From: Adlercreutzia caecimuris B7
GTDB taxonomy: Bacteria > Actinomycetota > Coriobacteriia > Coriobacteriales > Eggerthellaceae
Assembly (NCBI RefSeq): GCF_000403355.2
Contig: NZ_KE159646.1
Span: 266,424 to 330,423, forward strand
Length of the DNA stretch: 64,000 nt
Direction: 5' to 3'
Each line of letters opens with the position of its first letter. Position 1 is the first letter of the stretch. The notes under the pieces are model-generated. The model was not told the DNA's origin, made no database searches, and saw only the letters and a program-made list of their open reading frames with translations. This document shows, piece by piece, positions 211 through 54,787 of this stretch. The translations under genes were made by a program, and so were the position numbers.

Positions 211-223
211 GCATCCCGTGAAT

Positions 224-382
224 TCTGTTTCAGGGCGAGGTGGAAATCCTCACTGGCGGTAAGCACGGCGGCGCATCCGAGCGCTTCCGGCAAGCCCGCG
301 ACCCTGCGAAGCCCATGCGGCTTCCAGGCTGACCCGGTGAAAATCCGGGGCCAACGGTTACAGTCCGGATGGAAGAGGCAGA
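224..382 (+). promoter_or_regulatory. FMN riboswitch (RFN element)
   Basis: The conserved RFN segments are present in order: AGGGCGAGGTGGAAAT near 232, ACTGGCGGTAA near 251, GCCCGCGACCC near 294, then GGTGAAAATCCGG and GTTACAGTCCGGATGG near 363. The closing helix P1 pairs 224-231 with 375-382 using two G-U pairs. FMN binding normally stops expression of riboflavin synthesis or uptake genes, and the downstream gene is a RibU transporter, which fits. Confidence 0.95.
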
Positions 383-435
383 TGTTCGCGCGCCGGTCTT
401 ACGGGGCCGGCACCCGGCAAGGGGAGCGCGAACCG

Positions 436-4548: not shown

Positions 4549-5979
4549 ATGACTGACATCCTCACCACTATCGACTCCATCGTGTGGGGCCCCGCGATGA
4601 TCGCGCTCCTTCTGGGCACCCACGTCTACCTCACCTTCCGCACCGGCTTCATCCAGCGCAAGCTGCCGGCGGCCATCCGCAGGTCGGTGCACCGCGACCC
4701 CGACGGCAAAGGCGATATCTCCAGCTTCGGGGCCCTGGCCACGGCGCTGGCGGCCACCATCGGCACCGGCTCCATCGTGGGCGTGGCCACGGCGCTTCTG
4801 GCAGGAGGCCCGGGTGCCATCTTCTGGATGTGGATCGCCGGCCTGTTCGGCATTGCCACTAAATACGTGGAGACCTATGCGGCGGTGAAGTACCGCGTGC
4901 GCGACCGGCGCGGCCAGATGATGGGCGGCGCCATGTTCGTGTGGAAGCGGGCCTTCGCCCGGCCCGATGGCACGGTGCCCTGGTGGGCGACGCTAGGGGC
5001 CGTGGCCTTCGCCGCCTTCGCTATCATCGCCACCATCGGCACCGGCTCGGCGGTGCAGGCGGCGGCCATCTCGGGTATTGTCACCTCGTCCATTCCCGCC
5101 ATTCCGGCTGTGGCCGTGGGTCTGGTCATCGTGGTGGCCGTGGCGGCGGTCATCTTCGGCGGCGTGAACTCCATCGCCCGGGTGTGCGAATGGCTCGTGC
5201 CCGTCATGGCCGGCGCCTACGCCCTCGGCTGCCTCGTCATCATGGCCATGAACGCCCCGGTGCTGGGCCAGGCCGTGGGGCTCATCCTGGAATGCGCTTT
5301 CACGGCGAAGGCCGCCTTCGGCGGGGCCGTGGGCTCCGGCATGATCATGGCCCTGCAATTCGGCTGCGCCCGCGGGCTGTTCTCCAACGAGAGCGGTCTG
5401 GGCACCGCCCCCATTGTGGCGGCCGCCGCCAAGACCCGCAACCCGGCCGACCAGGCGCTCATCTCCATGACCGGCGCCTTCTGGTCCACCGGCGTCATCT
5501 GTCTGCTCACCGGTCTCGTGCTTGTGTCCACGATGATCGCCCATCCCGAGATCGGCCAGGAGATCCTCGCCGATCCCTCCGTCGCCACCGGTGCGGCGCT
5601 GGCCAGCGCCGCCTTCGCCGAGATTCCCGTGTTTGGCACGCCCATCCTGGTGCTCGGTATGTGCTCGTTCGCCTACTCCACCATTTTGGGCTGGAGCTAC
5701 TACGGCAACCGCTGCGTGGCCTACCTGTTCGGGCCCAAGGGCATCAAGCCCTATCAGATCGTGTACGTGGCCGTGGCCTTCTTCGGGGCCATCGGGGTGG
5801 GGGACGTGGTGTGGACCATCTCGGATATCGGCAACGCGCTCATGGCCATCCCCAACATCATCGTGGTGCTGTTGCTGTCGGGCATGATCGCGCGGGAGAC
5901 CCGGCATTTCGTCTACGAGGGGCATCTGGACGAGGAGTACGCCGAGCCCGTGCCCGTGGTGGACAAGGCCCAGCTGTAG
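4549..5979 (+). CDS. Alanine/glycine:cation symporter family protein (first paralog)
   Basis: This 476-residue polytopic membrane protein belongs to the AGCS (AlsT/DagA) family, which imports alanine or glycine with sodium or protons. The family signature appears around FGCARGLFSNESGLGTAP, with GTGSIVGVATALLAGGPGA earlier and a WSYYGNRC segment late. About ten hydrophobic helices are visible. The ATG lies eight bases after TAAGGATCC. The next gene is a paralog of identical length, so the pair arose by duplication; substrate differences cannot be read from sequence. The 5' gap is occupied by repeat copy A, so how the gene is transcribed is unclear. Confidence 0.93.
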   Translation: MTDILTTIDSIVWGPAMIALLLGTHVYLTFRTGFIQRKLPAAIRRSVHRDPDGKGDISSFGALATALAATIGTGSIVGVATALLAGGPGAIFWMWIAGLFGIATKYVETYAAVKYRVRDRRGQMMGGAMFVWKRAFARPDGTVPWWATLGAVAFAAFAIIATIGTGSAVQAAAISGIVTSSIPAIPAVAVGLVIVVAVAAVIFGGVNSIARVCEWLVPVMAGAYALGCLVIMAMNAPVLGQAVGLILECAFTAKAAFGGAVGSGMIMALQFGCARGLFSNESGLGTAPIVAAAAKTRNPADQALISMTGAFWSTGVICLLTGLVLVSTMIAHPEIGQEILADPSVATGAALASAAFAEIPVFGTPILVLGMCSFAYSTILGWSYYGNRCVAYLFGPKGIKPYQIVYVAVAFFGAIGVGDVVWTISDIGNALMAIPNIIVVLLLSGMIARETRHFVYEGHLDEEYAEPVPVVDKAQL

Positions 5980-6110: not shown

Positions 6111-6234
6111 GCGGGTACTTTAGCGCGTTAAAGTGCCCGGGTCGCTCTGGCGGCGGCTCGGACCGCGATGGGGCTTGGGGGCCTTACGCTCGCGGGCCCT
6201 GTGCCGACGCGCCCGTAGGAGAGGAGTGCGATTC

Positions 6235-7665
6235 ATGGATATGATCGTGAACGCCATCAACGCCATCGACGGCTTCGTATGGGGACCGCCGATGCTCGTG
6301 CTGCTGCTGGGCAGCCACATCTTTTTGACCTTCCGCACCGGGTTCATCCAGCGGAAGCTGCCGACGGCCATCAAGCTATCGGTAACCAAGGACCCCGACG
6401 CCCCCGGAGACATCAGCCAGTTCGGCGCCTTGTGCACGGCCCTGTCGGCCACCATCGGCACCGGCAACATCGTCGGCGTGGGCACGGCCATCATCGCCGG
6501 CGGCCCGGGCGCGGTGTTCTGGATGTGGATTACCGGCGTCTTCGGTATCGCCACCAAGTACTCCGAGACCTTCGCCGCGGTGAAGTACCGCGTGAAGGAC
6601 CACAACGGCAACATGCTCGGCGGCGCCATGTACGCCTGGAAGCGCGGCTTTATCGACAAGGCCGGCAACACTCCCTGGTGGGCCATGCTCGGCGCCGGCG
6701 CCTTCGCCCTGTTCGCGGCCATCGCGTCGTTCGGCATTGGCTCGGCCGTGCAGTCCTCGGCCATGACTGAGGTTATCTCCACGAACCTGCCCGGCGTACC
6801 GGCTTGGGGTATCGGCCTGGCCATCGTCATCATGGTGTCCGTGGTCATCTTCGGCGGCGTGAAGGTGATCTCCAACGTCTGCGAGAAGCTCGTGCCCTTC
6901 ATGGCCCTGGCCTACATCTGGGGTTGTGTGGTCATCCTCGGCATGAACTGGGAGCTTGTCTGGCCGGCGCTCTGTCTCATCGTGGAGAGCGCCTTCACGG
7001 CCAAGGCGGCCTTCGGCGGCGCGCTCGGTTCCGGCCTTATGCTGGCGCTGCAGTTCGGCTGCGCCCGCGGCCTGTTCTCCAATGAGTCGGGCCTCGGCTC
7101 GGCGCCCATCGTGGCCTCGGCGGCCGCTACGCGCAACCCGGCGCGCCAGGCGCTCGTCTCCATGACCGGCACCTTCTGGGACACCGTGGTCATCTGCCTG
7201 CTCACCGGCCTCGTGCTCGTGTCCACTATGCTCGGCAACGCCGACCTGCAGGCTGAGATCATGGCCGGCAATATCACCGCCGGTGCGGCCCTGTCCTCGG
7301 CGGCCTTCGCCGAGATCCCCTACATCGGCACGCCCATCCTCATCTTCGGCATGATCCTGTTCGCCTACTCCACTATTCTCGGCTGGTCCTACTACGGCAA
7401 CCGCTGCGTCACCTACCTGTTCGGCAAGCGCGCCATCCGCCCCTACCAGATGCTCTACGTGCTGGTGGCCTTCCTCGGCGCCATCGGCGTGGGCGACGTG
7501 GTCTGGACGGTCTCCGATATCACCAACGCGCTCATGGCCATCCCCAACATCATCATGGTACTGCTGCTCTCGGGCCTCATCGCCCGCGAGACGCGCCACT
7601 ACGTGTACGAGGGCAACCTCGAGGAGCGCGACGAGACCCCCATCCCGCAGCTGGACAGCAAGTAA
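6235..7665 (+). CDS. Alanine/glycine:cation symporter family protein (second paralog)
   Basis: This 476-residue AGCS symporter is closely similar to the preceding one along its whole length. It shares GTGNIVGVGTAIIAGGPGA, FGCARGLFSNESGLGSAP and WSYYGNRC. The ATG at 6235 is chosen because AGGAGAGGAG lies 8-17 bases upstream and the resulting length matches the paralog exactly; the frame is open 34 codons further upstream but without a ribosome site. It has its own likely promoter and is followed by a strong hairpin. It probably carries small neutral amino acids with sodium. Confidence 0.93.
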   Translation: MDMIVNAINAIDGFVWGPPMLVLLLGSHIFLTFRTGFIQRKLPTAIKLSVTKDPDAPGDISQFGALCTALSATIGTGNIVGVGTAIIAGGPGAVFWMWITGVFGIATKYSETFAAVKYRVKDHNGNMLGGAMYAWKRGFIDKAGNTPWWAMLGAGAFALFAAIASFGIGSAVQSSAMTEVISTNLPGVPAWGIGLAIVIMVSVVIFGGVKVISNVCEKLVPFMALAYIWGCVVILGMNWELVWPALCLIVESAFTAKAAFGGALGSGLMLALQFGCARGLFSNESGLGSAPIVASAAATRNPARQALVSMTGTFWDTVVICLLTGLVLVSTMLGNADLQAEIMAGNITAGAALSSAAFAEIPYIGTPILIFGMILFAYSTILGWSYYGNRCVTYLFGKRAIRPYQMLYVLVAFLGAIGVGDVVWTVSDITNALMAIPNIIMVLLLSGLIARETRHYVYEGNLEERDETPIPQLDSK

Positions 7666-7691
7666 TCATTCTGCAAAATATGGTGTGACGG

Positions 7692-7720
7692 ACGAGCGCT
7701 CTGCCATGCAGGGCGCTCGT
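7692..7720 (+). terminator. Hairpin after the second symporter
   Basis: Thirteen base pairs (7692-7704 with 7708-7720, one G-U) close on a three-base loop. The run after it is GTTAGAAT rather than a clean T tract, so termination efficiency is uncertain. The TAGAAT there may be the -10 of the following small gene. Confidence 0.5.
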
Positions 7721-7800
7721 GTTAGAATGGCCAGATGGTCGACGGGCCGTAAGTCCTGAGCGCCAGGCGGTGCCTTCTTTTTCGAGAGGAGGTGAATCGC

Positions 7801-7914
7801 TTGGACGTCTTCGTTTTCATCGTGCGCCTGGTGACAGCTGTTGTCGGGTTGCTGAGGGAGGCGGTTGCGTTCTCCGAGACGCTCAGGAGGGGCCAACATA
7901 GGAAGGACCGCTAG
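7801..7914 (+). CDS. Small hydrophobic peptide, possible type I toxin
   Basis: A TTG-started frame of 37 residues has a very strong ribosome site (GAGAGGAGGTGA) eight bases upstream. The peptide begins DVFVFIVRLVTAVVGLL, enough for one membrane helix, and ends in the basic tail RRGQHRKDR. That shape is common to type I toxins and holin-like small peptides, but I recognise no family. A TAGAAT box at 7723-7728 could drive it. A 10-bp hairpin at 7905-7930 overlaps its stop, and an extended -10 faces it from the other strand near 7984-7992. Function is inferred only from architecture. Confidence 0.5.
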   Translation: MDVFVFIVRLVTAVVGLLREAVAFSETLRRGQHRKDR

Positions 7915-7930
7915 TTCGCGCTAGCGGTCC
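7905..7930. terminator. Bidirectional hairpin at the end of the small peptide gene
   Basis: GGACCGCTAG at 7905-7914 pairs perfectly with CTAGCGGTCC at 7921-7930 around a six-base loop. There is no strong T run on either side. It would be shared by the peptide mRNA and by any leftward transcript starting near 7978. Confidence 0.5.
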
Positions 7931-7983
7931 CAACTAAACGACGGTGCCGCCTGCACATCACCTCAGGCTGGTCCGTTGGCCTC

Positions 7984-7992
7984 ATTCTAGCA
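7984..7992 (-). promoter_or_regulatory. Possible extended -10 promoter for an antisense RNA
   Basis: On the minus strand TGCTAGAAT (7992 to 7984) matches an extended -10 box, but no clear -35 is seen. A transcript from it would run left into the hairpin at 7905-7930 and overlap the 3' end of the small peptide gene, giving an RNA of roughly 75 bases. Confidence 0.35.
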
Positions 7993-8027
7993 TAAGTTGC
8001 ACGGGAAGGCGAACGGGCGGAAGCGGT

Positions 8028-54592: not shown

Positions 54593-54668
<76 letters not shown>

Positions 54669-54675
54669 GAAACAA

Positions 54676-54705
54676 GAAGGCCGGGGTCGCTGACCTCGGC
54701 CTTTC
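54676..54705. terminator. Shared terminator between convergent tRNA genes
   Basis: GAAGGCCGGGGT and ACCTCGGCCTTTC form a stem with a G-U pair and a short loop, with TTTC on the right and, on the minus strand, CTTC/TTGTT. It lies between tRNA-Arg (plus) and tRNA-Gly (minus). Confidence 0.65.
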
Positions 54706-54713
54706 GAATGCTC

Positions 54714-54787
54714 TGGAGCGGGCGACGGGAATCGAACCCGCCTCATCAGCTTGGAAGGCTGAGGTTCTACCAATGAACTACGCCCGC
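54714..54787 (-). tRNA. tRNA-Gly (anticodon TCC)
   Basis: On the minus strand GCGGGCG (54787-54781) pairs with CGCCCGC (54724-54718). The stem TCAGC/GCTGA encloses CTTCCAA, anticodon TCC, reading GGA/GGG. CCA is encoded (54716-54714). TATACT at 54809-54804 is the likely -10, with the palindrome ATGCAACTTGCAT around the start site. Confidence 0.97.

Follow-up and report, generated by a model that had tools for sequence, protein, structure and literature searches.

Several described type I toxin-antitoxin systems resemble the locus reported here. As set out in the sections cited, the Fst/RNAII (par) system of Firmicutes has a small hydrophobic peptide with a charged C-terminal tail, a convergent antisense RNA, and a hairpin at the 3' end of both genes; its two RNAs use a common bidirectional terminator and pair via direct repeats at their 5' ends (PMC8167048, PMC3543317). 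For AapA/IsoA of Helicobacter pylori and for hok/Sok, the cited portions describe a long-distance interaction between the 5' and 3' ends of the toxin mRNA and a Shine-Dalgarno (SD) sequence that is masked in the primary transcript (PMC6733600, PMC8167048). In a third group, comprising txpA/RatA, yonT/SR6, and Clostridioides difficile pairs, the excerpts cited give a convergent antisense RNA that overlaps the 3' end of the toxin gene and toxins with a hydrophobic N terminus and a lysine-rich tail (PMC8167048, PMC6563280, PMC5848175).

We analyzed a 64,000-nucleotide stretch of the 2.96-Mb genome of Adlercreutzia caecimuris B7, here called the window, in which an initial annotation had proposed a candidate type I toxin-antitoxin locus. 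Judging from sequence, we consider it likely that the locus is a chromosomal type I module, with a predicted toxin and an antisense antitoxin, whose family is restricted, as sampled, to the Coriobacteriales. The proposal is supported by the conservation of both the peptide and the antisense RNA and by their lopsided loss; the hairpin that was to terminate the peptide transcript did not hold up on the sense side. The 37-codon frame has a sodium:alanine symporter gene on one side and an HI0933-type flavoprotein gene on the other, and two tandem symporter genes (PF01235; window 4549-5976 and 6232-7662, plus strand) adjoin the element. The TTG-started frame for a hydrophobic and basic peptide, its SD sequence, both extended -10 elements, and the 10-bp hairpin were found where, and as, they had been described (Table 1). 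The locus is not a chance arrangement, because the peptide is found in other genomes and genera and the combination of parts turns up again at dozens of loci. A near-perfect hairpin (GAGCGCTCTGCCATGCAGGGCGCTC) occupies positions 7694-7718, immediately 5' of the sense -10. Elsewhere in the window there is an FMN riboswitch (RF00050, 98.8 bits; 222-384, plus strand), and tRNA-Arg(TCT) and tRNA-Gly(TCC) genes face each other at 54593-54787.

Table 1. Predicted features of the window locus (positions within the window)
Feature	Position	Strand	Basis or remark
-35-like CTGCCA of predicted sense promoter	7701-7706	+	Sequence read
Extended -10 TGtTAGAAT of predicted sense promoter	7720-7728	+	Sequence read and consensus scan
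Leader segment X1 (GTCGACGGGCCG)	7738-7749	+	Predicted partner X1' at 7970-7981; 5'-3' pairing prediction for the sense RNA
Leader segment X2 (AGGCGGTGCC)	7765-7774	+	5' arm of SD-sequestering hairpin; complement of X2' at 7943-7952
Shine-Dalgarno AGGAGGTGA	7787-7795	+	Sequence read; conserved in leader alignment
Peptide gene, 37 aa (TTG start 7801; stop TAG 7912-7914)	7801-7914	+	Predicted toxin: one hydrophobic helix and basic tail
T-tract of antisense terminator	~7896-7904	-	Falls in Lys/Arg-codon region of peptide gene
10-bp hairpin GGACCGCTAG-ttcgcg-CTAGCGGTCC over stop codon	7905-7930		Terminator of antisense RNA
X2' in predicted sense 3' UTR	7943-7952	+	Covaries with X2
X1' in predicted sense 3' UTR	7970-7981	+	Complementary to X1, G-U pairs included
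Predicted antisense RNA (antitoxin), ~80 nt: 5' hairpin, then terminator hairpin	7896-7978	-	Model R1 match and consensus structure
Extended -10 TGcTAGAAT of antisense promoter	7984-7992	-	Sequence read; fixed position in family copies

One plan was common to the approximately 80 loci that we read. A -10 box precedes a leader that carries GTCGACGGC- and GGCAGCGCC-like segments and holds the SD sequence in a hairpin; the peptide, of about 36 to 56 amino acids, has a hydrophobic N-terminal part and a K/R-rich tail; and the stop hairpin is followed by AACGGCGCTGCCC, farther on by GGGCTGCCGTCGAC, and by a reversed -10 box. The peptide, SD sequence, stop hairpin, and opposite-strand promoter recur together in the Coriobacteriales genera Adlercreutzia, Slackia, Collinsella, and Olsenella, often several times per genome.

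The initial annotation had suggested searching related genomes for the peptide. We found it in two of eight further genomes of the genus, as well as in two other genera (E values of 2e-5 or better), with the frame conserved, and an alignment profile extended the search to relatives in Eggerthellaceae-like, Collinsella-like, and Olsenella-like genomes. Over codons 2 to 26, pN/pS was 0.29 in the window's own group and 0.38 to 0.59 in five others; by this measure, the peptide is under purifying selection in six of seven groups. The remaining value, 1.09, comes from three near-identical sequences (three pairs) with few differences. A 19-residue segment with a mean hydropathy of at least 1.6 was present in all 36 peptides tested, the C-terminal tail was net positive in 32 of them, and AlphaFold predicted a single helix for residues 2 to 33 of the window peptide (mean pLDDT of 84.5). 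In hydropathy, tail charge, and predicted helix, the family thus has the small hydrophobic peptide, often with a charged tail, that is typical of type I toxins. What is conserved is a hydrophobic peptide with one predicted helix and a mostly basic tail, preceded by a strong SD sequence within a leader hairpin. In a variant group (L070, L047, L080, and L213), the peptide lacks the hairpin stop and extends to about 56 amino acids, with the region of the antisense 5' hairpin encoding its last residues (e.g., NGTAR). At L006 (near position 1609), the hairpin stop codon TAG is changed to TCG and the peptide is longer by about 8 residues; L202 shows a similar read-through.

On the opposite strand, a covariance model of the antisense RNA (R1) matched the window copy at G000:C1:274323-274409 (G000 being the window's genome), minus strand, with an E value of 1.7e-14. 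The consensus fold of 41 aligned antisense sequences consists of two hairpins, both of which contain compensatory changes (both sides changed, pair kept; 13 of 20 consensus pairs). The minus-strand RNA of the window folds with a z score of -2.4 against shuffles. Of 92 peptide-linked copies, 87 have a TANNNT box upstream of the start of the antisense RNA, compared with 7 of 92 for a control stretch, and in 82 of the 92 it occupies one fixed position, the other 5 of the 87 matches lying off it. For this count, we used 74 of the 81 antisense-matched peptide loci, dropping near-identical copies and second matches, and left out four of 22 peptide-bearing antisense matches. Among copies without a peptide, the box was present in 16 of 25 (control, 3 of 25). 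The nine bases after the hairpin included at least four T's in 37 of 41 loci on the antisense side and in 1 of 41 on the sense side. The stop hairpin, with the T-tract in the Lys/Arg codons, therefore resembles a one-way intrinsic terminator, serving the antisense RNA alone. By sequence conservation, then, the complementary antisense RNA has its own promoter and terminator, as a type I antitoxin should. The proposed minus-strand extended -10, driving a short antisense RNA through the hairpin, is borne out at this level as part of a conserved structured unit: a separately promoted RNA of about 80 nt whose predicted terminator is encoded within the last codons of the peptide gene. At four loci (L191, L223, L213, and L227), antisense units occur in tandem, about 126 to 266 bases apart, with one intact peptide gene each; the additional units are antisense-only duplicates or relics.

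The sense strand is less regular. Of 74 family loci, 55 have a TANNNT box at the equivalent position, compared with 12 of 74 for a control stretch counted by at least four matches to TATAAT. The peptide transcript had been proposed to end in the 10-bp hairpin. That hairpin does lie over the stop codon; its use as a terminator of the sense RNA is unsupported given the single sense-side T-tract, and we found no clear sense terminator. Because the T-tract is on the antisense side only, the sense RNA probably continues some 50 to 60 nt past the hairpin, into a 3' UTR that is predicted to pair with its own leader. There, X2' lies about 28 to 35 bases after the stop and is complementary to the 10-base leader segment X2. 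Among 26 distinct X2 and X2' pairs, 235 of 260 cells were paired, versus 218.5 ± 2.1 in shuffles (0 of 20,000 reached the observed value), and slid registers gave 30 to 54% pairing. L065, which is without a leader, was excluded from this count, and the low score of L043 (4 of 10) reflects a shifted register, as 12 positions pair two bases further on by eye. The pairing is preserved through changes such as GGGCAGCGCC/GGCGCTGCCC, GGGCAGAGCC/GGCTCTGCCC, GGGTCGCGCC/GGCGCGACCC, and GGGCGGCACC/GGTGCCGCCC; one segment of the leader and one of the predicted sense 3' UTR thus covary.

Folding predictions agree with a closed sense RNA. The predicted sense RNA of the window folds better than 200 of 200 shuffles (z score of -3.7), with the SD sequence inside a hairpin. 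In 36 folded sense RNAs, the first and last 32 bases shared a mean of 15.5 predicted pairs, versus 4.0 when the 3' UTR was shuffled, and at least 8 such pairs were predicted in 34 of the 36 loci. In the full-length RNA, X2:X2' pairing has a mean predicted probability of 0.52, and pairing of X2 with the SD region climbs from 0.32 to 0.65 once the 3' UTR is removed. In the window copy, X1:X1' and the SD hairpin (X2:SD) are predicted to form together and the X2:X2' probability is near 0. The masking of the SD sequence in the primary toxin transcript that characterizes type I systems is thus predicted here as well. Since the mean unpaired probability of the SD sequence is low both in the full-length RNA (0.13) and when the RNA is cut after the hairpin (0.08), the model does not account for the activation step. 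Complementarity between the leader and the 5' part of the antisense RNA was not beyond that of shuffles (means of -37.9 and -37.2 kcal/mol, 36 loci). It follows that X2' acts within the sense RNA or that the inverted segments are kept alike for another reason, perhaps mimicry or gene conversion between inverted repeats.

These features allow the family to be placed among the known systems. Like Fst/par, it has a hydrophobic peptide with a charged tail, a convergent antisense RNA, and a hairpin at the 3' end. Unlike in par, the T-tract is on the antisense side only and the repeats are inverted, so that the antisense 5' end resembles the leader, to which it is no more complementary than shuffled sequence. 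With neither the complementary 5' direct repeats nor the shared bidirectional terminator of par found here, we rejected membership in Fst/par. Profile comparison of 35 family members with Pfam and NCBIfam at E values of up to 1 reported no Fst family. Nor were the AapA or hok peptide families among those matches. The family resembles AapA/IsoA and hok/Sok in the predicted, covarying 5'-3' pairing of the toxin mRNA and the predicted masking of its SD sequence, but it belongs to a different phylum, a local upstream hairpin is also predicted to mask the SD sequence, and the region covered by the antisense RNA is the 3' end of the gene together with the 3' UTR. The converging layout pointed out in the initial annotation is that of known systems: as in the cited accounts of txpA/RatA and the C. 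difficile pairs, the antisense RNA overlaps the 3' end of the gene. The family shares with these pairs and yonT/SR6 the hydrophobic N terminus and basic tail and has no protein or RNA family match to them; covariation between leader and 3' UTR and antisense-only relics are features observed in the present family.

No Pfam or NCBIfam family exceeded its cutoff with the window peptide. The nearest, TisB, gave an E value of 0.14 (best among 35 family members, 0.0033), and with 13.1 bits against a curated Pfam cutoff of 25, we rejected membership. IstR-1, the TisB antitoxin, is encoded divergently and targets a ribosome standby site, a layout that is absent here. At the RNA level, no Rfam family reached its gathering threshold over the window element or in 20 loci, and matches of the element below threshold were at chance level; Corio-PBP (RF02945), at 7971-8024 on the plus strand, was discarded with 20.6 bits against 63.5 (E value of 0.21). 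The module as a whole fits no Pfam, NCBIfam, or Rfam family. In the titles and abstracts listed by full-text searches on type I toxins or antisense RNA combined with Coriobacteriia, Collinsella, Eggerthella, or Actinobacteria, we found no such system in the order. The module would work like type I systems with a 3'-overlapping antisense RNA (txpA/RatA and the C. difficile pairs) and like those with a 5'-3' interaction (AapA/IsoA and hok), and it belongs to none of the families that we tested.

The family is confined, as far as sampled, to the order Coriobacteriales. In 84,980 species genomes, a strict DNA pattern of the leader picked out 34 stretches, of which 31 lay in Coriobacteriia and 3 elsewhere. 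Peptide, X2', and antisense -10 were all present in 26 of these, one had no clear -10, and three ran off the stretch; the four that did not fit the plan were the three from outside the Coriobacteriia and one from an Atopobiaceae metagenome-assembled genome (MAG). We took the three outside matches (a Pirellulales MAG, Streptomyces, and Nonomuraea), which have no peptide, X2', or antisense -10, as chance. At E values of ≤0.01, the antisense covariance model found matches in 99 of the 296 class genomes, representing 36 of 125 genera; the most in any one genome was 8. Within the class but outside the Coriobacteriales, one genome matched (E value of 0.0057). Among 396 genomes across the phylum, 22 matched, and the 8 outside the order all had E values of 3.6e-4 or worse. 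Viral contigs contained no match to the element, plasmids and phages queried with one Collinsella-type peptide gave nothing of weight, and plasmids queried with the DNA of the paralog L069 gave just a 73-base stretch of 76% identity in three Rhodococcus plasmids. We therefore rejected phage or plasmid carriage for the sequences so queried.

Peptide and antisense RNA are not lost equally. An antisense match lay at the stop in 81 of 84 peptide loci, and two of the three misses were at contig ends; the 84 include two loci fetched twice (L055/L076 and L056/L071) and omit matches in long reading frames (L042, L048, and L051) and early matches (L001 to L005 and L007 to L022) that were weak or came from the same loci again. 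We examined 47 antisense matches: 22 had a peptide (19 by rule and 3, L193, L202, and L229, by eye) and 25 lacked the peptide or its start, a proportion that is not a genome-wide rate because the sample was drawn mainly from sites for which we had not already retrieved a peptide locus. We compared 18 of the 25 peptide-less copies with intact elements, and 17 matched. In eleven relics (L197, L203, L212, L226, L218, L225, L209, L217, L199, L215, and L220), whose nearest intact relatives span at least six different peptide types, the kept piece starts in the region of the antisense terminator, 11 to 75 bases ahead of where the stop codon used to be. L226 also keeps the first 39 bases of the leader side, which implies loss of the peptide by an internal deletion. 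In four Collinsella-type copies (L201, L205, L206, and L214), the body of the frame is kept and the ATG and SD sequence are lost. That the antisense RNA often occurs without a peptide and the peptide hardly ever without an antisense RNA fits a toxin-antitoxin pair, in which an antitoxin can persist without its toxin but a toxin is not expected without its antitoxin. Peptide genes in three Collinsella-type assemblies (L102, L104, and L130) are truncated at contig ends, as if assemblies break within near-identical copies.

The element is also variable in position. The window genome has two further copies, near C1:1010590 and C1:991412 (L069 and L070); in their neighborhoods, five of six reading frames tried, some of which are perhaps wrong frames, had no Pfam match. 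The flavoprotein gene is present in all nine genomes of the genus, and the element precedes it in three (G000, G001, and G002). The other six have a plain T-rich hairpin there instead, and in one of them (G005), the upstream neighbor differs. The module has thus been gained or lost at one site within the genus. In these element-free relatives, the T-rich hairpin and a TATACT lie just 5' of the flavoprotein ATG, which suggests a leaderless transcript.

The main rival explanation is that the antisense RNA controls a small regulatory membrane peptide that is nontoxic at native levels and modulates a membrane protein or stress response. Sequence does not distinguish such a peptide from a toxin, and the peptide genes of the window, L005, and L006 lie just 5' of an HI0933-type flavoprotein gene or the like. 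Still, we think it unlikely: the peptide sequence diverges strongly in Olsenella types while the RNA layout is kept, the peptide is often lost with the antisense RNA retained, and the element is multicopy and present or absent at one site within the genus. A secreted or surface-active peptide (bacteriocin- or modulin-like) under antisense control would also have a hydrophobic helix and a basic tail; we give this little credence, as the window flanks are the symporter and flavoprotein genes, with no transporter or immunity gene, and antisense-only relics would not be expected if the peptide were aimed at other cells. It is about as improbable, or slightly more so, that the locus is a small nonautonomous mobile element whose terminal inverted repeats (promoter and X1-X2 on each side) mimic convergent promoters, with the peptide as a passenger. 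The two ends are indeed imperfect inverted repeats, -10 boxes included, and the copy number in many genomes and the presence or absence at the symporter-flavoprotein junction would suit mobility; against it stand the selection on the peptide at the protein level, the compensatory changes in the antisense hairpins, the one-sided T-tract, the lack of any target-site duplication noticeable by eye at the window locus, and the searches of viral contigs (no match) and of plasmids and phages (none of weight). A leader peptide or attenuator of the flavoprotein gene, suggested by the order of peptide, hairpin, and flavoprotein gene on one strand, is scarcely credible when relatives keep that gene without the element, two more copies lie elsewhere in the window genome, and the hairpin has no sense-side T-tract.

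For the type I module that we favor, a mechanism can be proposed. Both RNAs would be transcribed, and the sense RNA (about 245 nt) would read through the hairpin. The primary sense RNA would be closed: its leader would be base-paired with the 3' UTR, and its SD sequence would be masked. Both the 3' UTR and the end of the coding region are perfectly complementary to the antisense RNA, which would bind there and strip the 3' UTR from the leader; this binding would mark the mRNA for decay or keep it closed, and no peptide would be made. Upon a shortage of antisense RNA, a processed mRNA would be translated, and the peptide would enter the cell's own membrane and cause depolarization or growth arrest. 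A more specific and tentative version, which as a whole we hold to be possible but rather doubtful, is one of mimicry. The antitoxin RNA would be a near-copy of the toxin leader that arose as an inverted duplication of the promoter and the X1-X2 segments, and the two would compete for one 3' UTR and so decide whether the SD sequence is masked; the Lys/Arg codons of the toxin would contain the antitoxin's terminator, and the antitoxin would outlive the loss of the toxin as a ready anti-addiction RNA.

If the module is real, it represents a large multicopy family in common gut bacteria, whose peptides are unlikely to be annotated as a family because no curated model matches them. It would be a test case for competition among the 3' UTR of a toxin mRNA, its leader, and an antisense RNA, and the antisense-only relics would be natural material for asking whether antitoxins are kept against incoming or duplicate toxins.
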